Assembly: GCF_024346315.1 (NCBI RefSeq)
Contig: NZ_JAGQCS010000009.1
Location: forward strand, 1 to 64,000
Direction: 5' to 3'
Origin: Cyanobium sp. ATX 6F1
Lineage (GTDB): Bacteria > Cyanobacteriota > Cyanobacteriia > PCC-6307 > Cyanobiaceae
Length of the DNA stretch: 64,000 nt
Made by a program: the position numbers and the translations under genes. The notes below the pieces were generated by a model. The model searched no databases and was not told the origin of the DNA. It saw nothing but the letters and a program-made list of their open reading frames with translations. Below, piece by piece: positions 368-15,753 of the stretch. Position 1 is the first letter of the stretch; each line of letters opens with the position of its first letter.

Positions 368-3300
368 ATGAGCAGCCCAATCAAAAACGCACTCAAGCCC
401 CTATTGAAAGGGTCAAGGGCAGCAGCCATTGGCGCCCTGGGCTCAGTCTGTCTTTTGGCCTGCGGCTCGCAACTGAATGCCTATGCGCAAACAACAATCA
501 CCGTTGATAATAAATCTGGCCTCACATCCTCTACTAGTGGCAACCTGGGATGGTTCTACGGATTCAATCAAGGCGGCAATATCAATTGGAATTCCCTACC
601 CTTCACTGGCTCTACTTCCTTCCCATTGCCAACGGGGGGAAAAGGCGGAACCTTGCAGATCATTTTGGCAGACCCGACCGGCATCAAAACCGGCCAATCA
701 CCTGGCACCGTTTTAATTGGCCCAGGCTACAGTCAGTTGTATGAATTTGCAACAGCAACCAACCCTTACACACTTGACATTAGCTGGGTAAATAATTTTA
801 GCTTTCCCTCAACCGTTGCAGCGCCAGGGCTGAACTCGATTGGAATTAAACCGACCCTAACGCGGAGCGCAATTTACAGCAAATACACCACCTTTGCAAA
901 GGAGCTGGGCTACGGAGACCTAGTCATTAGCAATCAGTTCTTAACCTCAGCTTTCTCTAATAACGTCAGAAGCCCATTCAGCCTCCCACCTGGCACCGCT
1001 CCGACCAGCAATCCTCAGGCTTACCAGTTCATCCTAAATCCCGGTCAGGCTGTGATCCCGGGAGCCATCAACCTCATTTCCAATGCAGTGGCAGCGGACA
1101 TAAATACATCCTCTTTTGATAACATATGGGGAGATTTTCTGAGACGCGTTCAAGCGAAGAGCAGCTTTAAACTATATTCCCCACCGTACAAATCGGATTT
1201 ACCAGCAGCAACCGTGACGGGCTCTACCATCAATAATATCCCTGCAGCAAGCATCTTTGGCAACTTAGCAGTCGCGAACAACTACGCCGCCACCACAACA
1301 CTAGACCCTTCAAAAATTTACTACAACGGATCCGCTAGATTCACGGGCCTTCAATTCACAGGCGTTCCAACCGGCCCGAGCACAACAACAACAGCCTATA
1401 TCCCAACACCAAGCGATATTTCGGCTCAACTTCTCTGGAAAACCAAACAAAAAAACCACAATATTATCATCCCGAACACCCAAAACGCAGCAACGATGGA
1501 GGTGTCTGCCAGTGATGCTGCCAAGTTGCAGCCTGGGATGTTCCTGGTTAGCAGCAATAATTACTTCACCAATCTCTCAGGTGGCACTACGTCTGATGTG
1601 ATGATCATGGCCATCACGCCCAACAGCGGCAGCAACAACAGCGTAACCCTTACGCTGTACTCGCCAGGGGGCAATCTACAGACCACAGCACCCAAAAATG
1701 AAAACAACGCTGTCGTACTTTTTTCCAATATCAACGATCGTTCGCAGGCCAACTCACCGGCTGCTGTCTGGCTTGCAAACAAGTGGCCGCTGGATTCCAA
1801 CCAGACTCTAGACAACCAGGTATATTGCAACTCCACAATGGACTGTCCCGTTTCAAAATGGGTCGGGCAAATCAAAACCCAGCTCAATCAAGCAATCAAC
1901 TGGGGTTCGCTGGCCTCCACGCTGCCTACTGGCGACACTTTGATCAATACCGTTTGGGCGAACCCTGCTAATTGGTACACCAATACCGATGAAAACGGGA
2001 ATCCTGCTTACAACATCTATTCGGCGTTCTGGCACACGCAGGATGTTGCTACAGCATTTGACACTAACCAAGATCCTTACAAATCTTTTGCCGCTGCCTA
2101 CGGATTCTCCGTAGATGAGAATCCGTACACCGGCTTTCCTGGTAGTTCGTCGCTTCCGACCTTACAGGTTCCATCCAAGTGGGACGGAACCCTTCAAGCC
2201 GGCAATCCCGTGACGATCACCTTGCAGGAGTGGGGCAGCACTCCACCGCCAGACCCCTGCAGCGCGGTTGATGACGTGGTGTGCTGGAACGCAGCCTCAG
2301 GCCCATTCAGCCTAAACACAAACTGGACATCCTCTCAACTTCCTAACCCAGGCACTCCCTTTAGCCTGATCAGTTTCCAGGCTCCTTATGCCATTACTGG
2401 TGGAACGGCTACCAATAACATCACCAACTTCAAGGCCCAGGGAATTGAATATGGGGTTGGGACTGGATCTTACACAATCGATGGAGCCCCCATCACACTC
2501 ACCGGCCGCAATGGGTTCGCCATCAGCAACGAGAGCGGCACTACTCAGACTATTTCGGCGCCGCTGACTCTGACCGGCAGCTCGCGCCTGAGCCTCAACG
2601 TGACGGAAGACTCCAGCCTCACCCTCACCGGCGGCTTAACCTCTGCCCAGGGCTGGCGGAAAGCTGGAAGTGGGCTGCTCTCCCTGGATGGGCTCAGCAA
2701 AGGCACTGAGAGCACCGGCCGGATCTCCATCGCCGGCGGTACTCTTTCTCTTAAAAACAACAGCAACATTTCCAATTATGCCGGCATCGGCTCTGCCCTA
2801 TCTACGGTGATCGAAGGTTCAGGTACCCTGCCGGGCACGGGAAAGAGCTCCATTCAAGGTATGTTGGTTCCTGGCGATATGGATTCACCGATCGGCCGAC
2901 TGGCCTTCACAGGTGATCTAAACATTGGCTATGGCGGCGGTGCCATTCTTCACAATCTCTCCGTAAATCCTGCCAGCAGCGACTTGATAAGTGCTGCCGG
3001 CATTCTCACGATTTCCCCTCAAAACAGCACTCTCTCGATCGGCTCAGTTACTGGCACTACAGCCTCCTATTGGATCCCATTGATAACCGCAGGCAGTGAC
3101 AGCTCGGTGAGTGGGGCTTTCAGTCGCATCTTTGGCCTTAGCGAAAACCGAACCATCGTCTACCGAACATCAGGGAGCCGCCCCGGGGTCTTTCTGCATT
3201 ACAACGGAGATACACCCATTCCAACAGGTGATTGCATAGACCCTGGCAATCCCGCCAACGATGCAAATCCCTATGCCACCACCTTCTGTGGAGGCAGGCT

Positions 3301-5275
3301 GATAATTAACACCAACTCGTCTAATGATAACTGGCTACTAGAAAAGGTATCAGGCGCCGGCACGAACCGCATCGATCTTGCTGGCTATTCTGGCAACTCA
3401 AACTTCACTGGGGTTTTCAGCGGAGAAGGAGATTTGACATTAGAGAATACTGGTCAGACCTTCAATGGATCAATGACGCTCAGCGGCGACAGCACCTACA
3501 CAGGGCTTACCACCATACGCACTGGTGCCAGAGTCTTCATCAACGGCTCGATTGCACCGTCCGCTTCACTGACAGTTCAGTCTGGCGGATTAGTCGGAGG
3601 CAACGGTCTTCTGCCTAGCACGGCGTTGAATCCTGGTGCAATAATTGCTCCTGGCAATTCGATCGGCACCCTAACCGCTGCGAATCTCACCCTGAACGGC
3701 GGCACGATTGCAGCAGAAATCCGGGGGCCGCAGAACGACCGCATCAATGTAACTGGCAATGTGACCGACTTCACCGGCACAGCTGCGCTGATCCCCTTCG
3801 GGGGTGGTTCACCTTTTCCGGGCTTTGTCTACACTGTCGTTGACGCGTCCAACAGTACCAACTTCGCCTCATCCTCAAGCCTGAATCTGGATCAGTCGTC
3901 TGTGAGCAGTGCTTTGCTGCGGTTCGGCACAACCCTGCGTCAGAACCCCCTAAATAATCCTCAAACCTTCGCAGTGCAGTGGAAACCCAATAGCACTACC
4001 GGAGCCACCACTGCCGCGATGCAGGCACTGGGCAACGGCAGCAATAATGCCCTCTGCCTGGCAGGATCTCTGGACAGAGCCTTTAACGCCCTTACGGACG
4101 TCGCCACCAACAACAAGAACAACAGTGGTAATGCCATCGGTGCCACTGGCTTCACCTCAGGCCAGGCCAAAGCAGCGGGAATGAGCTCTGGCTTTGTGGA
4201 AGCCCTCAACAACTTGGTGTTGCTGCCATCCAGCAACCAACTGGTGTCGGCCGTGAACTCGCTTTCCGCCCAGCCCTATGCGGCCTTCCAATCTGTGGGA
4301 CTTGAAACCCTTAAGCAGCAGCGCGAAACGGTGCTTGCCCAGGCTGGGCAATGCCTGAACAACGGCTGGATCATCAACGGCAAGAAGGCGAAGAATCCAC
4401 TCTGTGCCTTTGCCTTGGCCCAGAACAACAGCAGTTCCGTTCGCGGCAACGCCGACTTGGCCTCTTACAATGCTGGGGTATTTTCAAGTGGTATTGGCCT
4501 GGAGTACTACCCCTCCAACCAATGGAGTGTGGGTGTGAGTTACGGCTACGGTACCTCATATGCCAACAATTTCTCAACATCATCCGCCTCAATCAACGCA
4601 GGCGTGAATAGCCTCAACCTTTTTTCCCAGTACAGGCCTTCAGAGCAATGGCATGTGCGCGGACTGCTGGGCTACAGCAGCTTTAATATCGATGCAAGCA
4701 GATCCATCGCTTTTATCGGCAATGACTCCTCCCTCACCTCCAACACAAACGGCAATGGGTTTACTGCTGCCATCGAAACTGACTACGCATTCCCACTCAC
4801 CAAACCGTCCTCGCCCACCCAGGCAGTAATCAAGCCGCTTCTAGGACTTGCCTGGGGCAGTTATGCACAATCAGGATTCTCCGAATCAGGCAATGCTCTC
4901 GCACTCTCCGTAAATGGCAATACATCTAATAGCCTTGTAACGACTGCAGGCGTTGAGTTCAGCACCAGCCCAATCCCTCTGAACACATCAAAAACAATGA
5001 GCATTCGGCCCTCACTATTGGTGGCCTATCAGGTGGACGCACTTGCGAACAATAGCTCTAACAAGTCAATGATGTCGACGTTCTCTGAAGCCTCCAGCGC
5101 CTGCGAATCATGTAAGACAGAGGGCCAGAACCTGGGGACCAATGGCTTAAATATAACCGCTGGTGTTGACTTGCAATTTAACGATTCAACATCTCTCTAC
5201 GTTAATGCCTCTTACGAGACATTCACCAACGCTTCCCAGTATGGATACGGCGGTGGCTTGCGTGTTCGCTTCTAA
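368..5275 (+). CDS. Autotransporter-like outer-membrane protein with beta-barrel domain
   Basis: Predicted surface protein of about 1,635 residues. The N-terminus has a basic stretch and hydrophobic core followed by an AYA-Q type cleavage site (Sec signal). The central part is a long Ser/Thr/Asn/Gly-rich passenger. Around residues 1030-1150 there are autotransporter-associated beta-strand features such as STYTGLTTIRTGA and GAIIAPGNSIGTLTAANL. The last roughly 280 residues look like an autotransporter barrel: alternating aromatic strands (GIGLEYYPSNQWSVGVSYG) and a C-terminal Phe (LRVRF). ATG 368 is preferred; an in-frame TTG at 356 is possible, and neither has a strong ribosome binding site. 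Residues about 1-600 match nothing I recognise. Base composition is clearly more AT-rich than the downstream backbone, which suggests horizontal acquisition. The passenger's function is unknown. Confidence 0.85.
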   Translation: MSSPIKNALKPLLKGSRAAAIGALGSVCLLACGSQLNAYAQTTITVDNKSGLTSSTSGNLGWFYGFNQGGNINWNSLPFTGSTSFPLPTGGKGGTLQIILADPTGIKTGQSPGTVLIGPGYSQLYEFATATNPYTLDISWVNNFSFPSTVAAPGLNSIGIKPTLTRSAIYSKYTTFAKELGYGDLVISNQFLTSAFSNNVRSPFSLPPGTAPTSNPQAYQFILNPGQAVIPGAINLISNAVAADINTSSFDNIWGDFLRRVQAKSSFKLYSPPYKSDLPAATVTGSTINNIPAASIFGNLAVANNYAATTTLDPSKIYYNGSARFTGLQFTGVPTGPSTTTTAYIPTPSDISAQLLWKTKQKNHNIIIPNTQNAATMEVSASDAAKLQPGMFLVSSNNYFTNLSGGTTSDVMIMAITPNSGSNNSVTLTLYSPGGNLQTTAPKNENNAVVLFSNINDRSQANSPAAVWLANKWPLDSNQTLDNQVYCNSTMDCPVSKWVGQIKTQLNQAINWGSLASTLPTGDTLINTVWANPANWYTNTDENGNPAYNIYSAFWHTQDVATAFDTNQDPYKSFAAAYGFSVDENPYTGFPGSSSLPTLQVPSKWDGTLQAGNPVTITLQEWGSTPPPDPCSAVDDVVCWNAASGPFSLNTNWTSSQLPNPGTPFSLISFQAPYAITGGTATNNITNFKAQGIEYGVGTGSYTIDGAPITLTGRNGFAISNESGTTQTISAPLTLTGSSRLSLNVTEDSSLTLTGGLTSAQGWRKAGSGLLSLDGLSKGTESTGRISIAGGTLSLKNNSNISNYAGIGSALSTVIEGSGTLPGTGKSSIQGMLVPGDMDSPIGRLAFTGDLNIGYGGGAILHNLSVNPASSDLISAAGILTISPQNSTLSIGSVTGTTASYWIPLITAGSDSSVSGAFSRIFGLSENRTIVYRTSGSRPGVFLHYNGDTPIPTGDCIDPGNPANDANPYATTFCGGRLIINTNSSNDNWLLEKVSGAGTNRIDLAGYSGNSNFTGVFSGEGDLTLENTGQTFNGSMTLSGDSTYTGLTTIRTGARVFINGSIAPSASLTVQSGGLVGGNGLLPSTALNPGAIIAPGNSIGTLTAANLTLNGGTIAAEIRGPQNDRINVTGNVTDFTGTAALIPFGGGSPFPGFVYTVVDASNSTNFASSSSLNLDQSSVSSALLRFGTTLRQNPLNNPQTFAVQWKPNSTTGATTAAMQALGNGSNNALCLAGSLDRAFNALTDVATNNKNNSGNAIGATGFTSGQAKAAGMSSGFVEALNNLVLLPSSNQLVSAVNSLSAQPYAAFQSVGLETLKQQRETVLAQAGQCLNNGWIINGKKAKNPLCAFALAQNNSSSVRGNADLASYNAGVFSSGIGLEYYPSNQWSVGVSYGYGTSYANNFSTSSASINAGVNSLNLFSQYRPSEQWHVRGLLGYSSFNIDASRSIAFIGNDSSLTSNTNGNGFTAAIETDYAFPLTKPSSPTQAVIKPLLGLAWGSYAQSGFSESGNALALSVNGNTSNSLVTTAGVEFSTSPIPLNTSKTMSIRPSLLVAYQVDALANNSSNKSMMSTFSEASSACESCKTEGQNLGTNGLNITAGVDLQFNDSTSLYVNASYETFTNASQYGYGGGLRVRF

Positions 5276-5474
5276 CTCGTTAACTGAGCGATATCGGCCA
5301 CGCCTGCAAGCGGAGGAAGCCTAGGGACTCAGATGATTAAAGCCTGACCTAGATGAGCTAACTGAAGCGTTGTCGCGGGATTTCGCTGATGCCTAATGTT
5401 GTCAACCTATCGTCACGGGACATACGCACGGGTGCAAAGCGGCTCGCAAAAACCCCAATGTTTCTGAATACTTT
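5276..5474. other. Intergenic sequence left of the mobile element
   Basis: This lies between the autotransporter stop and attL. In the element-free chromosome it would lie directly downstream of the tmRNA gene. I see no gene, RNA or clear terminator in it. Confidence 0.5.
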
Positions 5475-5513
5475 AAAGGGGCCTTCCAGCCCCCACGGAT
5501 CATTTGGGTGATA
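5475..5513 (+). repeat. attL: 39-bp copy of the ssrA 3' end
   Basis: Identical base for base to 15410-15448, with an offset of 9,935. It includes the hairpin and A-run that form the tmRNA terminator when read on the minus strand. Identity stops sharply at 5474/15409 and at 5514/15449. Read with the nearby integrase, this is the distal attachment site of the element. Confidence 0.88.
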
Positions 5514-5610
5514 GACCCCTACGGGCCATTGCGACAACTACGCTTCTCTGTGACGGCAAGGAATTGCAAGGAACAGCCGGGAGCACGAAGTAAGCTGAAG
5601 GTGCGGAAAT

Positions 5611-5636
5611 TTCCGCGTTTTTTCCGCGCTTGCGGA
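5611..5636 (+). repeat. Left-end integrase-arm-like repeat (TTCCGCG pair)
   Basis: Two TTCCGCG units separated by a short T-rich spacer and followed by CTTGCGGA. The same arrangement occurs in direct orientation just inside the right end at 15339-15369. Their placement inside both att sites and upstream of the integrase suggests arm-type recombinase sites or terminal replication/packaging signals. The assignment rests on position and repetition only. Confidence 0.45.
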
Positions 5637-5661
5637 AAACTGGCCTCAGAGGAAATGACCA

Positions 5662-6879
5662 ATGGCGACCACCAAAGCAGCCAACGTATGGGAGGCCGGA
5701 TTCCGTTCCGCCATCCGCACCGGCAGGGCCGGATGGACCGTTTCGAACAACCGTGGCCGAATCCAGCTCAGGGTGCGATCAGCCAACGGCAAGGTCGAGT
5801 CGGCATCGCTGCCTCTGGAATGGTCACCAGCCAGCCAGGCTGCGGCCATGCAACTGATCGGCAGGATCTACCAGATCGTGGCAACCGGCCAGCAGACGGT
5901 GAAGGGTGCCCTGCAAACGGTCGTGGATGGCAGCGACACCATGAAGACGGGCACCAACTGGAGCTCCGCCGTGGATGGCCTGCGGGCGGAACTGATGAAT
6001 GGGCGGAATGAAATCCTCCCGGCGACGTGGAAGTCCAACTACCAGCAGTACATGGAGGAAGCCCTGCGGATCTTGGATGGCCCGAACCCACCTCACGATG
6101 GGCATGGGCTCCTCCAGCGCACTCTTGAGCGGTGGAAGGGCAAAGCGGCCAGCCGTGCGGCCTGCTGCATCGCCATCCGCAACCTGACCGATCACGCTAT
6201 GGCCAGGCATCACGCGGCGGCCTGTTGGACCATCACGGCGCCGATCGTGAAGAACCTTCGAGGGAAGACATCAGAGAAGCGGACCAAGGCCACCCTTTCT
6301 GATTCGGAAATGCTCTACCTCATTGAGGGAGTGGATCGCCGGAATCCTGGTTGGGCGAACGTGCTCCGTGCCCTGGCCCTGTTCGGGCTGCGGCCCATCG
6401 AGTTGCAGCATCTGGTCCCAAAACCTGACGACCAAGGGGTGTTGAGGATGTGGTGCAGCTACCGGAAGAACTGCGGCGGCCAGCTCACGGCGCCCCGCTG
6501 GCTGCTGCCTGCGCCGCTGCACATGGCCTCTGGAGAGCGTCAGGATTGGAACATCACCGGGGCGATGGTGGCGGGCTTGCTGGAAATCCCAGAGGGGCGT
6601 GATGGTGGATTCAGGGTGCTGAATGGCCACTACGTGGAGCAGTTCCTTCGAATCCAACCGGAATGGAAGGAACTGAAGGCGATCTACACCGCCAGGGGGG
6701 AATGGTTGCGGCCTTACACCTTCCGGGACAGTTACAGCCTGCGGTGCCACCAGCGAGGGGTGGAAGTGGGAGCGATCGCCTCCGCCATGGGCCACAGCCT
6801 GGCGGTCCATGCCAGCAGCTACAGGTGGGCATCAGAGGCAACCACTGCTGCGGCGTTTGAAGCGGCCTTCCCTGCCTGA
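5662..6879 (+). CDS. Tyrosine recombinase / integrase of the ssrA element
   Basis: 405 residues. The C-terminal half has the tyrosine-recombinase catalytic layout: Arg244 in GLRPIEL, a box II where the usual HxLR reads YTFR (Tyr352 to Arg355), GH at 377-378, and the likely nucleophile Tyr387 in SSYRW. The N-terminal ~200 residues would bind DNA. The variant box II (Tyr in place of His) is, as I recall, common in picocyanobacterial integrases. The ATG at 5662 has an AGAGGAA ribosome binding site about 8 bases upstream. It lies 148 bp inside attL, fitting a role in integrating into and excising from ssrA. The protein family is certain; its use of this att pair is inferred. Confidence 0.9.
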   Translation: MATTKAANVWEAGFRSAIRTGRAGWTVSNNRGRIQLRVRSANGKVESASLPLEWSPASQAAAMQLIGRIYQIVATGQQTVKGALQTVVDGSDTMKTGTNWSSAVDGLRAELMNGRNEILPATWKSNYQQYMEEALRILDGPNPPHDGHGLLQRTLERWKGKAASRAACCIAIRNLTDHAMARHHAAACWTITAPIVKNLRGKTSEKRTKATLSDSEMLYLIEGVDRRNPGWANVLRALALFGLRPIELQHLVPKPDDQGVLRMWCSYRKNCGGQLTAPRWLLPAPLHMASGERQDWNITGAMVAGLLEIPEGRDGGFRVLNGHYVEQFLRIQPEWKELKAIYTARGEWLRPYTFRDSYSLRCHQRGVEVGAIASAMGHSLAVHASSYRWASEATTAAAFEAAFPA

Positions 6880-7180
6880 GGGCATGGACAAGCCCCGGGG
6901 AACCGCGATGGATGTTGATTCAGGATCAGCCCCCTGAATCTGTGGTCAGCCATCCCTGACTCTGTCGATCTCACGCCCTTTATCAGCCCGAACGACCTGA
7001 TGGCACTGCACAGCTAGGAGCCTCAACGATCAGGAGGCGCTCCACCCAGCCAAGCAGGTGCATCTGACCACCCCAAGCGATGCGCAGCTCTGGCAGAGCA
7101 AGCGGGCCTGAGGCTGGACGGCCTGAAAAAGGGGGGAATTGAAAGTTGGAAAGCTGGGAGTGAGGCACCCGGTAACTTCC
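6880..7180. other. Integrase-HTH intergenic region
   Basis: No convincing gene. It contains a perfect 8-bp inverted repeat at 6917-6940 downstream of the integrase, and must hold the promoter for the HTH / primase / terminase genes, although no clear -10/-35 pair was assigned. Confidence 0.45.
6917..6940 (+). terminator. Possible hairpin terminator after the integrase gene
   Basis: GATTCAGG and CCTGAATC form an 8-bp perfect stem with an 8-base loop 37 bp after the integrase stop. There is no T-run, so it could instead be an operator for the divergent control region. Confidence 0.35.
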
Positions 7181-7435
7181 ATGACTTCCTCCGTATCCGC
7201 CCAGTGGATCCCAACCCCTGAGATGGCCGTCCGTCTAGGGATTCATCCAAAAACCCTCCTTCGGCTTCGTCGCCAATCGTTCGCACCATTCAGTGAGGGG
7301 ATGCACTATCGCCGTGGGGGCCTGACCACGGCAGCTCCGCTCCAGTGGCACCCGGAAGCCACTGAGTCGGCCTTCACCAGCTTCCGGCGGATCGACCCGG
7401 CAGCGGTCGAAACCTTCTCAGGTTCGAGGTCTTGA
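7181..7435 (+). CDS. Small helix-turn-helix DNA-binding protein (excisionase/AlpA-like)
   Basis: 84 residues from ATG 7181 (MTSSVSAQWI); an in-frame TTG at 7139 is less likely. The segment TPEMAVRLGIHPKTLLRLRR has the pattern of a winged helix-turn-helix of the excisionase/MerR type, followed by EGMHYRRGGLTTAAPLQW, a motif I associate with small regulators next to primases in cyanobacterial integrated elements. It lies 3 bp before the 40-codon ORF, which itself overlaps the primase, so the three are probably one operon. Likely roles are excision factor or element regulator; the sequence does not decide between them. Confidence 0.75.
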   Translation: MTSSVSAQWIPTPEMAVRLGIHPKTLLRLRRQSFAPFSEGMHYRRGGLTTAAPLQWHPEATESAFTSFRRIDPAAVETFSGSRS

Positions 7436-7438
7436 GCC

Positions 7439-7561
7439 ATGTCCCTCGTCACTTTGTCCTTGTGCCGCCAGCCGATCCACAACCCGGGGATGCAGGCCCT
7501 GGCTGAAGTCTGCCCAGGCGATCGGCTGCCCGCTGTCATCGTCGCGGGGGATGGCGAATGA
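7439..7561 (+). CDS. 40-residue ORF coupled to the primase gene
   Basis: ATG 7439 begins 3 bp after the HTH gene stop, and the reading frame ends in an ATGA overlap with the primase start (ATG 7558, TGA 7559-7561). It contains the short segment EVCPGDRLPAVIVAGDGE. The tight spacing on both sides supports translation, but no domain is recognised. It may serve only to couple translation of the primase, or be a small element-specific protein. Confidence 0.5.
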   Translation: MSLVTLSLCRQPIHNPGMQALAEVCPGDRLPAVIVAGDGE

Positions 7562-10239
7562 AAATCGCCCAACTGCTCTCGCCAGAGCAACCGGGGGAAT
7601 TAAAACCAGAAACCTCCGCCCATTTTTACGGTGCCACGGTCGCCCCCACCTGCCCCACCGGGGTCAGCCCTGCCGCTGCGCTATCTCCCGCCCATCGCCA
7701 ACAACTGCTGGATGAACTGGGCAGCGATGACGCCGTGCAGGTGGCCATCGACTACGGCGCCCGCAGCGTCACCCCAACTGAGGCCGCGGCCCTGGGCTAC
7801 CGCTACCAGGGCCACGTGACCGGGGGCCTCCTGCTGCCCTTCGGTGGTGACTTCGGGCAACTGCGTTGCGACGATCCACCTGTCGCACCCAACGGCGAAC
7901 GCCTCAAGTACCTCAACCGGGTCGGGAAGCCGCAGAGCGCCGTCACCTTCGGCAGCGGTGACCCGAAGATCGCCACCGAAGGCTGGAAGGATGCCCTGCG
8001 ACTGCACCTGGCCACCTGTCAGGCGGTGCAGGGCATCGCTGGGGTCACGGCCCACAAACTCCTGGCGCCATCGGTGGAGCTGTTGATCTATGACGCCGAC
8101 GCCCGCGATAACCCGGCAGTCTGGTCCCAGTTGATCGCTGCAGGACTGAATCGCAGCAGGCTGCGATTGGCGTTCTTCCCCGTTGACCTGGCCGGGCCGA
8201 AGGGGGGCGCTTGTGAGTTCTTCAAGGCCGCGACCTATGGGGCGTTCGAATCCATCGAGCGGTTCAAGGCCCGTGAGCTGATCCGCCTGCTGTCACAGCA
8301 ATGGGACCGCAACCTACGGGTGGATTGGCAGCCGCTGGCCATGCGTCACCTGGCGCGGCTGGCCGTGCTGGCGGGGTTTAACCGCGATGCGGTGCGCCAG
8401 TTGGTGGCTGGCGCAGCAAAGGGCATCGGGTTCCCTGTGGACTCCGCCAGGCGGATTGTCACCGTCGAGCAGCACAAGCAAGCCCCGCCGCCGAAGCCGC
8501 TACCGGCTGATGCCCCACCAGAGGCGCAGCTTGTTACCTGCGCCGGGGCGGTGCCGGAGTGGAGCGCCAACGCAGGCTCGTGGGCCAATGCCCTAGGGGC
8601 TGGCGTTGGCGATCGTCTGCGCATGAACCTGCTGAGTTCCCGCATCGAGTTCGATGGCCGCGACCTGCGGGCCGACACCGAGGAACTGTTGTACGTCTGC
8701 GCTCAGCAGGCGACCTGGAAGGTCAACAAGGTTGATTGCTTCGACGGCACCCGCCAAGTGGCCCGCGCCCATAGCTTTCATCCGGTGCGGGAGTACCTGG
8801 AGCGGGTGGCTGCCGATCCAACGCTGCCCACGATCGACCTGGATGCCATCGCCGCCCGTTACCTGAGCGTTGATGATTCGCTGAGCGCCGCAATGATCCG
8901 CTGCAAGCTGATCGAAGCAGTTGCTCGCATCTATGAGCCCGGCTGCCCATCGGTGGGGGTAGTTGTGCTGCGGGGGGCACAAGGCATCGGCAAGACCGAG
9001 TTCTGGCAAGCCCTGGCCGGAGCGTTCTATGTCACCAGCCGCGACACCGACAACGGCAAGGATCAGGCGATGTCGATGCACCGCGCCTGGTTCTACGACT
9101 TCGACGAGCTGGACAAAATGACGACCGCCAAACAGGCGGCATCGGTGCGCTCCACAGTTTCAACCAACTGCGACACGTTCCGCCCGCCCTATGCCCGGCG
9201 GGAAGAAACCTTCCCCCGGCAGTTCGTGATGGTGGCAGCCGTCAATGGCGACGGATTCCTAACCGACAAGGAAGGCAATCGGCGGTTCTTGGTGATCGAC
9301 TGCCCGCATCGCAAGGACAGCGGGGCCTTCATTGATGGCCCCGGCGCGAAACGCGACAGGGACGCGATCTGGAAGGCGGCGGTGGAGGCATACCGGGACG
9401 GGGCACCGTGGCGGCTGACGCCAGCGGAGCAGGCTGCCAGCAACGTCCGCAACAGCAATTGGGAGGCGGTTGACGAATGGGAGCCGGCCCTGGCGAGTTG
9501 GGCTCAGACCTCACGGACGCCCGGTGGATTCGACACCCGAGAGGCAATCGTTGGCGCGAACCTGCGGCTGCTTGAGTCGATCACCAGGGCCGATGAAATG
9601 CGAGCCTCCGACGCGCTCAAGCGAGCGGGTTTCGTGCGAAGGAAGCACGAAGTCCACCGGCCCGGCAAACCGAAGGCGCGGGTCTGGCTGCCGGGCGGGG
9701 GTGACATGGACCGTCACAGCCAGCCGGGAGGGCCGTCCTTGGCGCAACCGGCGCAACCTTGGCGCAACTTTTTCGAGGAGGTTGCACCAGCCGAAACCCA
9801 TAGCAGCGCAAGCGACCTGCCCCCCTTGACGCAACCTACGCAACCTTTTTTGGATTACTTCGAGGAAGAAAGACATAAGGGGTCACCCCTAGAGGGGGTG
9901 CATACCCTTCCTAGTAACAAGGAGGGGGAAAAGGCTGCGCCGGTTGCGCCAACGCCCCAAACCGGCTGTGAAACAGCCGATCTGGGATGCCGCACCACCC
10001 CGGGGGGGCCTCCGACGGTTGCGCCAGAGGACGGCCCACCCCCCGGCGGGCTGCTGACTACGCGGGAGGCCGTGGCCGAGGCGCTGCGGGCGTTGAAGCT
10101 GGCCGCGACCCACCCCAGCGTTACCCGCCAAGTGCTGGGGCACCTGGGCGCGGGATATGGGCGCCTGGCGGTGACGGCGGCAATCGAAGCCCTGCGGGAT
10201 GAGGAGCGCGCCGACGACCCGACAGCATTGACCCGTTAA
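7558..10239 (+). CDS. Primase-helicase: DUF3854/Toprim-like plus VapE-type ATPase
   Basis: 893 residues. The N-terminal ~300 residues resemble the DUF3854 Toprim-type primase region (YLNRVGKPQSAVTFGSG, ELLIYDADARDN as the acidic motif). Residues about 400-700 form a VapE-family superfamily-3-like ATPase: Walker A GAQGIGKT (473-480), Walker B WFYDFDELD (511-519), and the family-typical segment DKEGNRRFLVIDC. The C-terminal ~200 residues are Pro/Gly-rich and low complexity. VapE-type proteins start replication in phage satellites and some prophages, so this is probably the element's replication initiator. It starts inside the preceding small ORF (ATGA overlap). Confidence 0.88.
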   Translation: MKIAQLLSPEQPGELKPETSAHFYGATVAPTCPTGVSPAAALSPAHRQQLLDELGSDDAVQVAIDYGARSVTPTEAAALGYRYQGHVTGGLLLPFGGDFGQLRCDDPPVAPNGERLKYLNRVGKPQSAVTFGSGDPKIATEGWKDALRLHLATCQAVQGIAGVTAHKLLAPSVELLIYDADARDNPAVWSQLIAAGLNRSRLRLAFFPVDLAGPKGGACEFFKAATYGAFESIERFKARELIRLLSQQWDRNLRVDWQPLAMRHLARLAVLAGFNRDAVRQLVAGAAKGIGFPVDSARRIVTVEQHKQAPPPKPLPADAPPEAQLVTCAGAVPEWSANAGSWANALGAGVGDRLRMNLLSSRIEFDGRDLRADTEELLYVCAQQATWKVNKVDCFDGTRQVARAHSFHPVREYLERVAADPTLPTIDLDAIAARYLSVDDSLSAAMIRCKLIEAVARIYEPGCPSVGVVVLRGAQGIGKTEFWQALAGAFYVTSRDTDNGKDQAMSMHRAWFYDFDELDKMTTAKQAASVRSTVSTNCDTFRPPYARREETFPRQFVMVAAVNGDGFLTDKEGNRRFLVIDCPHRKDSGAFIDGPGAKRDRDAIWKAAVEAYRDGAPWRLTPAEQAASNVRNSNWEAVDEWEPALASWAQTSRTPGGFDTREAIVGANLRLLESITRADEMRASDALKRAGFVRRKHEVHRPGKPKARVWLPGGGDMDRHSQPGGPSLAQPAQPWRNFFEEVAPAETHSSASDLPPLTQPTQPFLDYFEEERHKGSPLEGVHTLPSNKEGEKAAPVAPTPQTGCETADLGCRTTPGGPPTVAPEDGPPPGGLLTTREAVAEALRALKLAATHPSVTRQVLGHLGAGYGRLAVTAAIEALRDEERADDPTALTR

Positions 10240-10332
10240 GGCTTGATCCACCCGGGCGGCGAGGCCCAACTGACATCAGCCCCGATGTGCAATTCTCTGG
10301 TGCTTCCGGGGCCACGCAGGAAAGATGAGGGC

Positions 10333-10797
10333 ATGTCCAACCGCCTGCCCCACCGTAAGCTCGACCCCGAGATGGTAGCCAAGGTGCGCGAGCTGGCCGC
10401 CCTCGGCCTTCGCCTGGAATCCATCGCAGCAGCCGTGAGCATTTCCTATGGCGGCCTCAAGGCTTGGCTTAAGAACGCCCGTGAGGGGGTCTGTACCGAG
10501 CTTGAAGCCGACCTACTTGCTGCGCTCCATGAAGGCCGCCAGGCGGGTGAGAAGGCCCTTGTGGCAAAGCTGTTGGCTAGTCAGGACACCGCCGACGCCC
10601 GGTGGCTACTGAGCCACAGCAACGCATGGCGCACTGGCTGGAGCGATAACAGCGCCGTCACCCGTGAAGTGAACCGCGCCATGGGGCAGGTGGTAAGTGC
10701 GATCGAATCCGCAGGGCTCAGGGCCGACCAGCGCCAGGATCTACTGCTGCGTCTTGCTGCTGCTGGCATAATCGCCGCGCCAGACAATGCGGAGTGA
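10333..10797 (+). CDS. Small terminase subunit (TerS-like)
   Basis: 154 residues from ATG 10333, preceded by AGGAAAG; an in-frame TTG at 10243 would add 30 unconvincing residues. An N-terminal helix-turn-helix (EMVAKVRELAALGLRLESIAAAVSISYGGLKAWLKNA) is followed by a helical region, the usual TerS plan of DNA recognition plus oligomerisation. Its 3' end overlaps the large terminase start by 11 bp. It would recognise the pac/cos site and choose which DNA is packaged. The call relies on architecture and on the downstream TerL. Confidence 0.78.
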   Translation: MSNRLPHRKLDPEMVAKVRELAALGLRLESIAAAVSISYGGLKAWLKNAREGVCTELEADLLAALHEGRQAGEKALVAKLLASQDTADARWLLSHSNAWRTGWSDNSAVTREVNRAMGQVVSAIESAGLRADQRQDLLLRLAAAGIIAAPDNAE

Positions 10798-12349
10798 TCC
10801 GATCCGACAGGCCCTGGCCCGGATGGACCTGGCGGAGCTTGAGGCGCAACTGGCTGAAAGGCCCGCGGGCACGTTCAAGGAGTTCGTTTCCCGCGTGGCC
10901 CCTCAAGTCGCCTTCTACCGCCATGTCGAGCTGTTGGCCGACGTGCTCCAGCGGGTTGCTGATGGTGGGCACCGCCGGGTGCTGATTCTGCTGCCACCAC
11001 GGTCTGGGAAAAGCCTCTTGTCCTCGCGGTTGCTGTCTGCTTACTACCTTCGCCGTCACCCTGGCCTGTGGGTTGGGATGAGCAGCTATGGCGCCGACCT
11101 TGCCGAGGGCTTCAGCCGCGAGGCGCGAGGGTTCTACACCGCTGATGGGGGAACCCTGGACCGTTCGAGCAAGTCTGTGGGCCAATGGGTGACGGGTGCT
11201 GGTGGCGGGTGCTGGGCGACGGGTGTCGGTGGTGCGACGACCGGCAGGGGATTCTCGCTGGGGATCGTTGACGACCCGACCAAAGACGCGCAGCAGGCCG
11301 ACAGCCCCACCTACCGGGAAAGGATGGTGAGCTGGTGGGAATCAACGTTCGCAACCCGTGCAGAGCCTGGAGCGGCCCTAGTGGTTGTACAAACCCGATG
11401 GCACATCTCCGACCTTGCTGGGCACCTATTGGCGAAGGAAGCGGAGGCACCGGAGGGTTGGCATGTTGTGAACCTGCCTGCCATTGCTGAACAGCAGAAC
11501 GAGCCCACTGCCTGGTCGCAGGAACCGGACTTTCGGGAGCCTGGTGAGCCGCTGTGTCCTGAAAGGTTCGACTCCGATGCATTGGCCAAGATCCGGGCAG
11601 GAATGTCGGCCCGATGGTGGGAGGCGCTCTATCAACAACGGCCCAGCATTGCTGCCGGGTCGGTGTTCGTTCGGGAGTGGTTCAAGTTCTACGAACCGCC
11701 AGAGGTGCCAAGAAACTTTGTCCGCCTAGTGGCTTCGATCGACTGCACGTTCAAGGGCACCGATGGCTCTGATTTTGTCTCCTTGCAGGTCTGGGGTCAG
11801 CACAGCACCGGCATCTGGCTGCTGGATAACGACACCCGCCGACTGGGCTTCACCGGAACTCTTTCGGCCATCACCGCCAGCCACCAGCGGTGGCATTGGG
11901 GCGAACTGCTGATCGAAGACGCGGCCAACGGGCCTGCGGTGATCGACACGCTAATTCGCCAGGCGCAGGGCTTTTCTGTGAGGGCGGTCAGGCCGTTGGG
12001 CGGGAAGGTGGCACGGGCGAACGCTGCGGCTGTGCAGCTCGAACAGGGCCAGGTGTGGTTCCCACGGTCGGCGCCATGGTTACAGGGTTTCGTGGATGAG
12101 CTGCTGAGCTTCCCCAGCGGCGCACATGACGATCAGGTGGACGCCATGACCCAGGCGCTCAACTACATCGCAGGCACCGGACCCATGCGGGTGAGCACCG
12201 CCATTTATGGCCGTGGCAATGGCACCCCCACGCGTGAGCCGTTCTCGCCTCTGCCGGATGAGGATTGGAAGCGCAGGAGTCAACTAGAGACGGCGAAGCA
12301 GGCCGCCCGCAAGGGAGCGGTGGGGTTTCGTGGCGTTTTTCATTCGTAA
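10787..12349 (+). CDS. Large terminase subunit (packaging ATPase-nuclease)
   Basis: 520 residues, full length. The ATPase domain has Walker A LPPRSGKS (69-76), Walker B GIVDDP (159-164) and the coupling segment VVQTRWH. The C-terminal RNase-H-like nuclease has its acidic residues in ASIDCTFKG (Asp319), LIEDAAN (Glu377/Asp378) and GAHDDQVDA (Asp448/Asp449). All catalytic motifs appear intact. It cuts concatemeric DNA and drives it into proheads. Finding TerL without portal or capsid genes is unusual for a satellite and suggests DNA packaging into a helper phage's particles, or a prophage that lost its structural genes. Confidence 0.92.
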   Translation: MRSDPIRQALARMDLAELEAQLAERPAGTFKEFVSRVAPQVAFYRHVELLADVLQRVADGGHRRVLILLPPRSGKSLLSSRLLSAYYLRRHPGLWVGMSSYGADLAEGFSREARGFYTADGGTLDRSSKSVGQWVTGAGGGCWATGVGGATTGRGFSLGIVDDPTKDAQQADSPTYRERMVSWWESTFATRAEPGAALVVVQTRWHISDLAGHLLAKEAEAPEGWHVVNLPAIAEQQNEPTAWSQEPDFREPGEPLCPERFDSDALAKIRAGMSARWWEALYQQRPSIAAGSVFVREWFKFYEPPEVPRNFVRLVASIDCTFKGTDGSDFVSLQVWGQHSTGIWLLDNDTRRLGFTGTLSAITASHQRWHWGELLIEDAANGPAVIDTLIRQAQGFSVRAVRPLGGKVARANAAAVQLEQGQVWFPRSAPWLQGFVDELLSFPSGAHDDQVDAMTQALNYIAGTGPMRVSTAIYGRGNGTPTREPFSPLPDEDWKRRSQLETAKQAARKGAVGFRGVFHS

Positions 12350-12725
12350 TAGTGCCAGTCGGCACACCCGCCAGGCTTCGAGTCGATTGGACACAGCCGA
12401 ACCCCGTCAATGGACAGCGCATCACACGCCGACCGGTCGGATTGGCATGTTGCTTGTTGAGAATCCCGGGCCAGATAAAGCCCGACTGGCACAGCCTCCG
12501 CTGAGCACCTGTCTGGCCAACAGGTGTTCAAGCGGACAGGTGCTCAGCTGGCATGGGTGACCTGGCGGCCATCGCCAACGGGCTAACACCAACCGACTGG
12601 GCGATACGACAGCCTACAAGAAATCCCTGCAACCCTCGCAATTAGTTAGGAGCCAATCCTCTGAGTGCATAACAGCGCAACCATGGACAACATACTCAAG
12701 AAGCCAAAAACCTCTGTGGCTACTG
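12350..12725. other. Gap between TerL and cargo
   Basis: No credible gene. The notable feature is a 14-bp perfect inverted repeat (12500-12548), listed separately. The rest is unassigned; a packaging or replication site could lie here. Confidence 0.4.
12500..12548 (+). repeat. 14-bp perfect inverted repeat downstream of TerL
   Basis: The left arm GCTGAGCACCTGTC (12500-12513) pairs exactly with 12535-12548 across a 21-base spacer that holds a further ACAGGT unit. There is no T-run, so it is not a standard terminator. It could be an operator, an origin or pac-type site, or a hairpin ending terminase transcription. Confidence 0.5.
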
Positions 12726-13370
12726 CTACGACTGGCGCTTTGTGTGCGAACAAATTCCTCCCAAACAGATGGCAATGACGCCACCTCCTATATTGAGGAT
12801 CTGATATATCTGATGAATTGAGCTCTCAGTCTTCATGGAAATCCCATTAAAAAGCATAATGGTCCCAGCGAGAAAGCCGAAGGCTGCTGTTAAAGAAAAG
12901 TGCTTGCCAAGACCGCGCAACTCCAACACGGCAGGAGGCAGCGGCACTAAAGGAGAATTTTCTGCCCTTGATGCAAAAGATTCCAGGCTTTCGTCTTGTC
13001 TTATTCCTTTCTCTCTTCTCTTAACAGAAGTTGCATGATTGAAGACTTCTTCAAGAACTTGATCTATGGGCAATCGTCCAATGATCCGGCCATCCTCGGC
13101 GGCCAATACATATGTCTTCTCCGATCTACGAGATCTTTCCGCCGATGGCGTCATATCATCCTTGATCTTCCGGTCACGATTTGCTATTGCTACTGCAGCC
13201 CTAAAAAGTGATGCATCGCCTTCGCTTGTCCCTTCCATATAGTCACATAAAGAGTAGGCTCCGAACTTTAAGAGATCTTCATTCATTTGTCGAGCCAATG
13301 ACTTGGTCTTCACTAAGCGGCTGTGCTTCTCGTTTTGGCTGATCTCCGTGACCCGAGCCGAGACGTGCAT
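12726..13370 (-). CDS. Uncharacterised membrane protein, cargo family copy A
   Basis: 214 residues. The soluble N-terminal part (residues ~55-120) reads LFRAAVAIANRDRK ... ERSRRSEKTYVLAAEDGRIIGRLPIDQVLEE and matches, with gaps, the start of the gene at 14084-14959. Two C-terminal membrane segments follow (HFSLTAAFGFLAGTIMLF and ILNIGGGVIAICLGGI). The ATG at 13370 lies directly after the stop of the broken Excalibur-domain gene (TAAATG), so the two were probably one operon. A downstream start at 13286 is possible. Coding sequence is AT-richer than its surroundings. No function is recognised; membrane location and island context allow, but do not prove, phage exclusion. Confidence 0.7.
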   Translation of the reverse strand: MHVSARVTEISQNEKHSRLVKTKSLARQMNEDLLKFGAYSLCDYMEGTSEGDASLFRAAVAIANRDRKIKDDMTPSAERSRRSEKTYVLAAEDGRIIGRLPIDQVLEEVFNHATSVKRREKGIRQDESLESFASRAENSPLVPLPPAVLELRGLGKHFSLTAAFGFLAGTIMLFNGISMKTESSIHQIYQILNIGGGVIAICLGGICSHTKRQS

Positions 13371-13797
13371 TTATCTGCGCAGCGATTCGCAAGCCACCCC
13401 ATCGCCGTTCTTATCGAGGTAGCTGTGCCCCTGCTTCAGCAACTCCTGGGCCTTGGCGAAGCTGCCGATTTCCTTGCAGCGGTAACGACCTCCCGACTGT
13501 GCGGGGCTCGGTTGTAGTGCACCCCCTCGGGCTCGACCAGTTTATCTGCCGCTGGAGAAGTTCCCCTGACTCCCGCTGTGCCGCCAGTCCCATGGTCTTG
13601 TGATGCAACCGGGAACTGACCACACTCCCAGCCGAGCAGTCTCAGCCGCCCATTCAGCTCTTGTTACTCATCTCAACCTTCTGCCAGTAGAAGCCGCCTG
13701 GACTGGGCTTGCCCTCGGCAAGCACCTTGGCACCAGCTGACAGCGGAACAAAGGCAAGGCAGGCCAGGGCAGCAGGCGCTATGAGAGAGAGGCGCAT
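13371..13797 (-). pseudogene. Secreted Excalibur-domain protein, broken by two frameshifts
   Basis: Three segments in different frames read as one protein. First is a signal peptide (MRLSLIAPAALACLAFV ... AGA) continuing through GGFYWQKVEMSN, closed by a stop at 13654. The next frame begins about 20 bases before that stop and runs QELNGRLRLLGWECGQFPVA to PEGVHYNRAPHS. The third frame reads GGRYRCKEIGSFAKAQELL, then YLDKNGDGVACESLRR and a stop at 13371-13373. The last part is a typical Excalibur calcium-binding motif (DxNxDGxxCE). Only the first 47 codons remain as an ORF. Sequencing error is an alternative to decay, but two shifts in one gene make decay more likely. Confidence 0.72.
13377..13407 (+). 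repeat. 31-bp repeat, copy 1 (Excalibur tail)
   Basis: Identical to 15130-15160 in the same orientation. It encodes, on the minus strand, the end of the Excalibur motif (DGVACESLR). It marks a duplication inside the cargo end of the element. Confidence 0.8.
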
Positions 13798-14083
13798 TAG
13801 TTCGCGTCGAATTAGCCCATCCTCTCTGGTTTTACTGCGCTTGAACGGGTGTGGGAACAGTGAGCGGGCACCGCTGCCCCTTTGATGCCTGCCCCCACCC
13901 TGGAGAGCCTGCTGCTGCTGGCCTTGAGCGTTCCCGACTACCGCCTCCACCTGATCGGAAGGCTCCGTCCTGCTGTGACAGGCTGAAGTTATCCCCGCTT
14001 CCGCATGGCGCGGAAGAGCTGGAAGGTCGGCTGGATGTCGTCAAAACTTCGCAGATTCCCTTATTGTTCAGGCGAGATGTCAG
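13798..14083. other. Divergent intergenic region between cargo genes
   Basis: It separates the minus-strand Excalibur pseudogene from plus-strand copy B and must contain both promoters. No promoter was assigned. A 33-codon ORF starting at 13885 has no further support. Confidence 0.4.
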
Positions 14084-14959
14084 ATGGCTAGAGGCATGAC
14101 AGAGGCTGAACTGGCTGAGGATAATCTATTCAAGGCGGCTGTCAGCTATTCCCTCAGGAAGGGTAAGATGAAGGCTGAGGGTGACGTTGATTCGGAGCGA
14201 TCTCGACCAACCGGCCAGTCGTTCGTATTGGCTGCCGCTGATGGACGGGTGATCGACCGGATTCCATTGGCTTTGGTCAGAAAAGAGGCTGCCAGGTTGA
14301 CAAACCTTCCCCAGGAGCTAGCTGTCAGGAGGAATGAAACAGCAGATGAAAGGATTGCACGCCAGAGGGCTAGGAGGGAGAGCGGAGCACTTGCTGCATC
14401 TACAGCACCCTTCGGCAAAACAGCACCCTGCGCCATCAAGTTAACCGGCTTCCTTCTCGCCTTACCAGTCGGATTCTTTGCTGCAGGATTCTTTCCAGAA
14501 GGAGCTTCAACAAAAGTGATCGCGGGCCTTATTGGAATTGTATTCCCTCCCATCATGGGACTTCTTTTGTCTGACTGGGTGAAGGGCGGAGCCAAGGGAG
14601 GCTTCATCAAAGCGATTGGCAAGGCCACAGCAATGGCAGGAGCGGGTATCGCTGCATCTTTCGTGCTGTTCAGTGCGATCGTCTTTCTATCGCGACCTAG
14701 CGACATTCTCAACGATGGCAGCGCCCGGGCGGACTGTGAAGCGAACCTGAAGCAGAAATTACGCGACCCAGCCTCCTATGAGCCCACCGGTGAATGGGCG
14801 AACGGGGGCGATGGCCTCGCCTCTGGTGGAGGGAAGGCCACGTGGACATGGAAGTTCCGCGCACGCAATGGATTTGGCGGCATGAATGTAAGCGTCGCTT
14901 CCTGTGTTGTAGACAGTGCCACTCAATCAGTAACCGCAGAGGTCATGATGTCCGAGTAG
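14084..14959 (+). CDS. Uncharacterised membrane protein, cargo family copy B
   Basis: 291 residues. The N-terminal ~100 residues (NLFKAAVSYSLRKGK ... ERSRPTGQSFVLAAADGRVIDRIPLALVRKE) are paralogous to copy A at 12726-13370. Three or so membrane segments follow (residues ~115-205), then a C-terminal domain of about 85 residues (ADCEANLKQKLRDPASYEPTGEW and RNGFGGMNVSVASC) that copy A lacks. That C-terminal pattern (Cys, LKDP-like segment, N-FGG, Cys) recalls small extracytoplasmic domains in phage and plasmid membrane proteins, but I cannot name the family. ATG 14084 has an AGGCGAG ribosome binding site; ATG 14096 is an alternative start. Function unknown. Confidence 0.75.
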   Translation: MARGMTEAELAEDNLFKAAVSYSLRKGKMKAEGDVDSERSRPTGQSFVLAAADGRVIDRIPLALVRKEAARLTNLPQELAVRRNETADERIARQRARRESGALAASTAPFGKTAPCAIKLTGFLLALPVGFFAAGFFPEGASTKVIAGLIGIVFPPIMGLLLSDWVKGGAKGGFIKAIGKATAMAGAGIAASFVLFSAIVFLSRPSDILNDGSARADCEANLKQKLRDPASYEPTGEWANGGDGLASGGGKATWTWKFRARNGFGGMNVSVASCVVDSATQSVTAEVMMSE

Positions 14960-15126
14960 TCCAGCTTCGCCCTTTCAGCGCACCCCGAACAGGCGCCGTC
15001 TGCCTTGGTGCGTGATCCGCTCCGGCAGGTCGCGGCCAGGGGTCACTTTCAGGTGAGCGTTCGATCAACTCTGCCCGGATCTTGTCCGGGGCCATTGTCA
15101 GCGGGCACCAGCGACCCATTGGTTTT

Positions 15127-15180
15127 TCAGCGCAGCGATTCGCAAGCCACCCCATCGCCGCCGCCGTTCGGGGCGGACCA
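15127..15180 (-). pseudogene. Excalibur-domain C-terminal remnant
   Basis: On the minus strand the sequence reads GGGDGVACESLR then TGA (15129-15127). It shares a 31-bp identical block with the Excalibur pseudogene at 13371-13797. Nothing upstream in this frame resembles the rest of the domain, so only the tail survives. Confidence 0.6.
15130..15160 (+). repeat. 31-bp repeat, copy 2 (Excalibur tail)
   Basis: Exact match of 13377-13407 in direct orientation, 1.75 kb apart; flanking sequence diverges at once on both sides. Confidence 0.8.
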
Positions 15181-15338
15181 ACTTCGCAAGTGACCCTGCC
15201 CAAGCGAAAGCCGCAGCAGCACCGCCCTGGCCACTTACCTGAGCCCTCGGCCACCAGTGGGAACACTTGGTGGGCACAGCTACCCCCTAGTGCTCACAGC
15301 GTCCAAGGCACTACTGGTGGCTACCCAGACTCATATTC

Positions 15339-15369
15339 TTCCGCGCTTTTTCCGCGCTTGCCTTGCGGA
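15339..15369 (+). repeat. Right-end integrase-arm-like repeat (TTCCGCG pair)
   Basis: Two TTCCGCG units with a T-rich spacer, then CTTGCCTTGCGGA, in the same orientation as the left-end copy at 5611-5636. Both lie within about 100 bp of an att repeat, consistent with recombinase arm sites. Confidence 0.45.
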
Positions 15370-15407
15370 CGAAAGCTGAAACCCTGAGAAGTCTTGGTAT
15401 AACTACT

Positions 15408-15433
15408 AAAAAGGGGCCTTCCAGCCCCCACGG
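15408..15433 (-). terminator. Rho-independent terminator of the tmRNA gene
   Basis: On the minus strand GGGGGCT, loop GGAA and GGCCCCT form a G+C-rich hairpin followed by a T-run. The same hairpin is carried in attL. Confidence 0.8.
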
Positions 15434-15448
15434 ATCATTTGGGTGATA
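15410..15448 (+). repeat. attR: 39-bp repeat inside the ssrA 3' end
   Basis: It covers the last part of the tmRNA coding piece and the terminator, and is identical to 5475-5513. Because the right copy is contiguous with the complete tmRNA gene, integration keeps ssrA functional. Confidence 0.88.
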
Positions 15449-15702
15449 AGGCTGATCTACCCCATCTCCCTAAGGAGTCAGGCGGCCACAGGGGCGGTCT
15501 GACGGGAGAAAGCAACGATGTTGTTCGCTGTTACGTGTGTGCTCTTACCGAGCAGGCTTCAGTCACCCTCCTGATACCCCGTCGAAACCATTGCAGCCCC
15601 GGGAAGGTCCCGCCACGGGAGCGGGAGAAATGGAGCTGAGCGGAATCGAACCGCTGTCCGAAGCATTGGTGTGAGCCACCTAGTCCGCCCAAGGACGGAC
15701 CT
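15413..15702 (-). ncRNA. ssrA: Transfer-messenger RNA, circularly permuted two-piece form
   Basis: On the minus strand the acceptor piece comes first: a T-arm GGTTCGATTCC and 3' end CAGCTCCA ending at 15631, CCA not encoded. A ~30-base spacer follows, then the coding piece starting GGGGCTGCAA at 15600, whose first bases pair with CAGCTCC. This order is the permuted arrangement known from alpha-cyanobacteria. The tag frame runs 15528 to 15478 and encodes ANNIVAFSRQTAPVAA then stop, with a GCG resume codon. A -10-like CACAAT lies at 15712-15707. The RNA rescues stalled ribosomes with SmpB and tags proteins for degradation. Its 3' end is the integration site of the adjacent element. The 5' boundary is approximate. 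Confidence 0.92.
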
Positions 15703-15753
15703 TGTCATTGTGGCAGCTGAACAGGGATCCAGGGTGGGGCAACACGGGTGGGC

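Follow-up and report, generated by a model that had tools for sequence, protein, structure and literature searches.

A satellite-like element with both terminase subunits and no recognised head genes at a tmRNA gene of Cyanobium

Can a phage satellite carry a DNA-packaging motor of its own and yet no head to fill? Among the satellites described in the papers cited here, the headless ones redirect the motor of a helper phage, and wherever a satellite has a motor of its own it has a head as well. The question is raised by a satellite-like element of ~9.9 kb in a 64,000-nucleotide stretch of the Cyanobium sp. ATX 6F1 genome (contig NZ_JAGQCS010000009.1, positions 1 to 64,000; hereafter the window), which encodes a small and a large terminase subunit (TerS and TerL) and no recognised head gene. 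A satellite of this kind would separate motor from head, and raises the question of whether a foreign terminase pair can load the prohead of another phage. Based on sequence comparisons, we propose, with a probability of roughly 0.63, that this element is a satellite similar to the phage-inducible chromosomal islands (PICIs) that would package itself by its private terminase into the proheads of cyanosiphophages.

The core of the element consists of genes for an integrase, a small helix-turn-helix (HTH) protein, a VapE-type primase-helicase, TerS and TerL, all of them open reading frames (ORFs) that follow one another in the same direction and are succeeded by cargo (Table 1). This is the arrangement that the initial annotation had described, and both the ORFs and the profile matches agree with it. 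The integrase has no Pfam match, and the HTH protein is, from its profile matches, a probable excisionase or AlpA-like regulator. VapE carries the motif GAQGIGKT at residue 473. The reading frames of TerS and TerL overlap by 11 bp, and TerL contains PPRSGKS, GIVDDP, SIDCTFK, IEDAANG and HDDQVDA, which we take to be its ATPase and nuclease motifs. The accompanying claim that capsid, portal and tail genes are missing also stands in our scans of the window proteins: apart from the terminase subunits, no significant head or tail family was found for nine proteins in Pfam or eight in PHROG, scans that a head protein without recognisable homology could escape. A tape-measure match in one cargo protein is at chance level (E 0.086). 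Unlike a prophage, the element has no recognised structural or lysis genes between TerL and its right attachment site (attR), a segment of ~3 kb that holds two cargo genes and small ORFs.

Table 1. Features of the element, with window positions and the evidence for each
Feature	Position	Strand	Evidence or remark
attL	5469..5513		partial copy of tmRNA 3' end; core 5476-5513
Integrase, tyrosine-recombinase type, tmRNA-site clade	5662..6879	+	phrog_1 integrase 1.1e-4, weak
Small HTH protein	7139..7435	+	weak HTH_17 and excisionase matches
VapE-type replication protein (primase-helicase)	7558..10239	+	Pfam VapE-like 2e-53; phrog_1313 DNA helicase 7.1e-59
Iteron cluster (TGGCGCAACC / GGTTGCGCCA), candidate origin	9740..10026		7 of the 13 window pattern matches lie here
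TerS, small terminase subunit	10243..10797	+	phrog_309 TerS 1.6e-5 (weak profile) and cyanophage synteny
TerL, large terminase subunit (ATPase and nuclease)	10787..12349	+	phrog_38 1.7e-99; Pfam Terminase_6N, _6C
Cargo 1, no assigned function	12726..13370	-	no Pfam or PHROG family
Cargo 2, no assigned function	14084..14959	+	no significant Pfam or PHROG family
attR	15404..15448		in the 3' portion of a tmRNA gene predicted on the minus strand (15387-15720)

The span of 5662-12349 first assigned to the element places the five genes correctly and is too short for the element as a whole, which a flanking direct repeat sets at 5469-15448. The repeat is 45 bp long with 43 identical positions (96%), and a 38-bp core is the same in attL, in attR and in the single transfer-messenger RNA (tmRNA) copy of a genome of the same genus (G001; here and below, G, L and C numbers denote genomes, loci and contigs). 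Judged by these repeats, the element is integrated in the 3' end of the tmRNA gene. G001 has an unoccupied copy of the attachment (att) site and no relative of the window integrase; its left flank is unlike that of the window, so that an unoccupied site is seen and a strict empty-site match is not shown.

Relatives of the integrase define a group of islands at the same site. The window integrase is matched in 184 of 400 genomes of the family (E <= 1e-15; at most four candidates scored per genome), and at 20 places in 19 genomes, its own included, the match covers nearly the full length with an identity of at least 46%. Around 18 of these places we fetched 17 stretches, several of which end at contig ends, and a copy of the tmRNA end lies beside the integrase in 15 of them (the exceptions are L288 and L295). 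Six stretches have both ends and an open integrase (L281, L282, L285, L286, L287 and L290); L299, outside the 17, has both ends and a broken integrase. The tmRNA-site islands built on this integrase measure ~8-15 kb. At a BLAST threshold of 1e-3, 11 of the 17 stretches have the HTH gene, four a relative of VapE, nine a small TerS-like gene and one (L284) a TerL. The idea that every island of the clade has a TerL was rejected, given that only the window and L284 have one. We also tallied the PHROG families of 111 ORFs from 11 islands (the window, nine other integrase-clade loci and L296, whose integrase is 39% identical), leaving out the integrase, VapE/helicase and TerL ORFs, a 2030-residue ORF of L288 and ORFs below 90 aa; no head, portal or tail family is among the first 25 of the 40. 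In L284, two integrase copies lie in a row near one tmRNA site (3471-4679 and 9325-10524), and in L286 an integrase (1511-2734) is accompanied by a fragment of a second copy (5958-6182), again near one tmRNA site. We read these pairs as tandem or layered insertions.

A similar layout is found with a different terminase. In L284 (G339), also at tmRNA, the order is integrase, HTH, helicase, VapE, a gene in the TerS position and TerL, and the contig ends soon after. This TerL is of the phrog_2 type (1.9e-26), has relatives in 20 of 330 genomes, G339 included, and shows no similarity to the window TerL by BLAST. The notion that the two TerL families are unrelated was dropped: both match phrog_979, and they are thus distant relatives. 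Two islands with this second TerL type are bounded at both ends, L344 in G191 (14 kb, at tRNA-Thr, with a perfect att repeat of 43 bp) and L346 in G208 (15.8 kb, at tRNA-Val, with a perfect att repeat of 45 bp). Each contains an integrase, a primase, a TerS-position gene and TerL, and in each TerL is the sole head or packaging match among the 10 proteins scanned. The gene order is shared by L345 and L354 (tRNA-Thr) and L347 (tRNA-Arg), with one end found; the replicase of L345 is primase-like, and those of L347 and L354 are weakly helicase-like. Both ends are also seen in L351 and L353, at tRNA-Pro, whose TerL is less closely related (28-30%). In tallies of the loci with the second TerL type and other TerL loci, no portal or capsid family is among the first 25 of 63 (102 ORFs) or the first 25 of 97 (114 ORFs); alignment A3 leaves out 15 of the 129 listed ORFs (nine from L362, four from L353, two from L361) and does not include L352. 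Of the five-gene order that the initial annotation had suggested looking for, the part made up of replicase, TerS-position gene and TerL recurs, in company with a different TerL family. We tentatively suggest, as a possibility held with somewhat less than even confidence, that picocyanobacteria host terminase-complete headless satellites that arose more than once, by the placing of different phage TerS-TerL pairs on a shared backbone of integrase, replicase and origin. A small conserved protein follows TerL in L284 (19555-19968), L344 (10800-11267), L345 (7889-8350), L346 (14132-14542), L350 (12724-13206) and L354 (10805-11221), and not clearly in L347; its PHROG match is no better than chance in L284, L344 and L346.

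The third component of this backbone is a candidate replication origin. Short repeats (10-mers like GGTTGCGCCA) are concentrated in the 3' end of the VapE gene, ~0.2 kb before TerS. Over the whole window the pattern count is ordinary (13 matches, equalled in 17 of 100 shuffles), and only the clustering is unusual. Since the pattern was chosen after the repeats had been seen, the cluster test uses the best of all 10-mers, in real and shuffled sequence alike. The best cluster within 300 bp has 8 copies. Neither the element after dinucleotide shuffling (25 shuffles) nor the VapE gene after synonymous-codon shuffling (60 shuffles) gave a cluster of more than 4. Clusters of at least five copies were then sought in up to 9 kb around the 3' end of the replicase ORF in 28 loci; for L347 and L354 this ORF was picked by position and matches mainly phrog_30286 (unknown function) and weakly a DNA helicase. 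Of the 28 loci, 16 have a cluster centred no more than 550 bp from the replicase 3' end, and six clusters lie elsewhere in these stretches; in L231, L283 and L296 the sole cluster is away from the replicase end. Clusters of at least eight copies occur in 10 loci, nine of them within 360 bp of the replicase 3' end. L287, outside the 28 because BLAST missed its replicase, has a primase (phrog_6088, 2.2e-38) whose gene holds a cluster of six copies within its 3' end. By comparison, 48 kb of ordinary G+C-rich window DNA has 13 clusters of 5-7 copies and none of 8, so a cluster of five is no proof by itself. The iterons vary between islands, with a CAACC core common to many and a T-run following in several. 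The Rep protein of Staphylococcus aureus pathogenicity islands (SaPIs) recognises iterons directly downstream of rep (PMC7581432), and for this reason the natural reading of the window array, which is placed within the final 0.5 kb of the VapE gene and not beyond it, would be a replication origin; a TerS-binding packaging site is an alternative. The array also offers a handle for finding more such elements independently of protein similarity. In Synechococcus phage S-H1 (L365), a hypothetical gene of 2.6 kb ends in an 8-copy repeat cluster, at 4419-4680; this cluster is possibly the phage origin, and its layout is like that of the satellite origins.

Which phages might provide the head? Among 50,697 phage records, the best-ranked relatives of the window TerL are the terL genes of Synechococcus phages S-CBS2 and S-CRES1-3 and Prochlorococcus phage PSS2 (~40%), and in S-CBS2, PSS2 and S-CRES1 the annotated order is TerS, TerL, sigma factor. 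In a TerL tree the window sequence falls among cyanobacterial TerLs and is weakly placed (94/94, tree drawn open); a PDB sequence search with TerL gave no matches. Relatives are abundant: 54 of the 400 family genomes, its own included, have one at E <= 1e-20, a scan of genome contigs gave 52 distinct loci, and IMG/VR gave at least 594 confirmed relatives among 600 stretches, of which the best 80 were kept. In the TerL-relative loci compared, a VapE relative (29%) is present only in L065 and L072. The common setting of TerL relatives in the fetched genome loci is a prophage that we call type B. It starts with HTH and SF2-helicase-like genes (identified by eye), a primase and a PD-(D/E)XK-like gene that narrowly misses the Pfam cut-off; next come a TerS-position gene, TerL, a sigma factor, variable genes, a portal (6.8e-21), a LysM protein and a scaffold (1e-11). 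The genome of the window has a type B prophage of its own (C1, ~428-446 kb). Type B is widespread in cyanobacteria (L009, L011, L012, L185, L189, L191 and others), and in it a variable region of a few kb lies between TerL and the sigma-factor gene on one side and portal and scaffold on the other; some genes of this region are defence-like by eye (for example, an HD/dGTPase-like ORF at 12219-13547 of L011).

TerS has other kin. Its homologues in the cyanophages KBS-S-2A (42.5%) and S-H1 (47.5%) lie next upstream of a gene annotated as terminase, and the window TerL has no significant match in the terminase region of either phage. With the kin of TerS and TerL in different phages, the window pair is of mixed parentage. 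That these phages are cyanophages, together with the type of the tmRNA tag, points to a picocyanobacterial host.

Based on these data, we propose the following scheme. Upon infection by a helper, the integrase would excise the satellite with the HTH protein acting as excisionase, and VapE would replicate it from the iteron origin. The TerS-TerL motor of the satellite would then recognise satellite DNA and dock on the portal of cyanosiphophage proheads, and the satellite would be packed, probably as a concatemer or by headful, with the helper supplying only heads, tails and lysis. The kinship of TerL indicates helpers of the S-CBS2/PSS2 or type B kind. If the motor is indeed private, the satellite would need a compatible portal and not a helper terminase, which could widen its range of helpers, and it could be freed from helpers that escape via changes in their terminase. 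Picocyanobacteria are major primary producers, and islands of this kind could influence both the yield of cyanophages and the transfer of genes in them.

Several observations weigh against this proposal. TerS and TerL resemble different phages, and that they form a working pair is unproven; we infer excision, induction and packaging from the genes, and no pac or cos site was identified in the element. TerL is present in only two of 18 integrase-clade loci (the 17 fetched and the window). The small TerS-like genes of the other islands match phrog_34910 (unknown function) or nothing, and this label, which is based on size, position and the match of the L288 copy to the protein preceding TerL in type B, is tentative outside the window; similarly, the TerS-position genes of the second-type islands match no TerS family. 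There is no cluster at the replicase end in 12 of the 28 loci, including L345, L346 and L353, and none at all in nine (L244, L245, L246, L248, L345, L346, L347, L353 and L354). Searches of IMG/VR, which could detect close relatives only, gave none for VapE, for TerS or for the integrase and TerL of L284. Lastly, the type B prophage of the same genome has by eye no clear capsid gene past its scaffold gene, and may therefore not be an active helper.

Because many relatives do without TerL, the chief competing account that still takes the element for a satellite has it move by means of its TerS and the TerL of a helper, its own TerL being a decoy against helper packaging or passenger cargo. This fits the nine island relatives out of 17 that have a small TerS-like gene and in which TerL was not found, as well as the different phage lineages of the window TerS and TerL. 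We consider it unlikely, given that TerS and TerL overlap and share their direction, that TerL keeps both sets of motifs, and that the same gene order is found in islands with a different TerL family.

A second rival is that the element is the remnant of a small prophage in which the head, tail and lysis genes beyond TerL have been deleted and which is now only decaying. The initial annotation had reasoned that its proposal would fall if close homologues were always part of a complete prophage. With TerL taken by itself, this holds in part: among 25 loci fetched for a TerL relative of 40-50% identity, 18 also have a portal relative, identified by PHROG, and the seven others comprise three short contigs (L014, L174 and L181) and four full 20-kb stretches (L010, L184, L187 and L193). 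In G366, the second-best match in the family, a portal-like gene (27%) lies past TerL. An internal deletion would also leave both att ends, and a 38-bp direct repeat (95%) around cargo 2, at 13370-13407 and 15123-15160, could be its scar. For the element as a whole the argument does not hold. In other genomes the integrase-HTH backbone builds islands in which no head family is among those listed, and islands with two ends repeat the order of replicase, TerS-position gene and TerL with a terminase of another family. Two att-bounded islands with no other head gene in ten proteins each are a poor fit to a deletion remnant. Moreover, the window VapE has no relative in type B loci, a relative of the window TerS is found only in G166 and G366 among the 25 TerL loci, and the five genes are open and the iterons kept. 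We regard a remnant as improbable, and the satellite interpretation put forward at first is supported.

The weakest rival takes the element for an integrative island of cargo that travels by vesicles, transformation or generalised transduction and whose terminase genes have no current role. It would agree with the lack of close relatives of VapE, TerS and the L284 integrase and TerL among viral contigs, and is very unlikely given that many islands keep a replicase and origin-like repeats, which passive spread would not need. The paper on tycheposons is said to report marine islands in vesicles as well as in particles.

How does a private-terminase satellite compare with known ones? Like PICIs and SaPIs, the element has an integrase with att repeats, its own replication helicase with origin-like iterons at the 3' end of its gene, the optional TerS and no recognised head genes. 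Those islands have a divergent repressor/regulator module next to the integrase; no SaPI-like regulatory module was identified in the element, in which the one small HTH gene runs in the same direction as the integrase. PICIs redirect the helper terminase by TerS or Rpp (PMC10690885), and the element differs in carrying a TerL instead of borrowing that of the helper. Capsid-forming PICIs also encode both terminase subunits; as first stated, they come with a complete head module, which according to PMC10690885 includes major capsid protein, protease, portal, connectors and HNH. The element differs in that none of these was recognised among the window proteins that were scanned. The Streptomyces satellites MulchRoom and MiniFlayer likewise have TerS and TerL, but they include an entire head module, and key genes for replication are missing from them (PMC10690885). 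The Vibrio phage-inducible chromosomal minimalist island (PICMI) is a small satellite without capsid-remodelling genes that is packaged as a concatemer (PMC10803314), a likeness that here concerns the genes alone; unlike in the element, no terS or other packaging-redirection gene was found there. Tycheposons and virion-encapsidated integrative mobile elements are also integrated islands of marine bacteria and proposed satellite families (PMC10803314, PMC11389934). The element likely overlaps with them; tycheposons lie at tRNA genes (PMC10872708), and the window element at tmRNA. Another picocyanobacterial element defined by its integrase lies at tRNA-Phe and tRNA-Cys (PMC10187409). In the literature searched, with most subscription papers outside it, there is no description of a headless satellite with both terminase subunits.

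Some further features of the element and its surroundings were observed. Cargo 1 and cargo 2 match the same N-terminal stretch of a 400-aa protein of L230 (9818-11020, G135), to which the cargo 2 N-terminus is 54% identical and which adjoins a TerS homologue; the C-terminal part of the L230 protein has weak head-morphogenesis matches. The N-terminal part of VapE is 59% identical to L231 (9617-10474) and 49% to L234 (9705-10526) over ~270 residues, and BLAST gives no match to the helicase part of VapE in these two loci; with likeness confined to the N-terminus, the replicases look mosaic. Directly left of attL, in the part of the window that begins at the start of contig C9, lies a large autotransporter gene (356-5275; Pfam Autotransporter 2.1e-37). 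Its DNA is lower in G+C (0.50-0.56), and it is possibly a second island at the same site.

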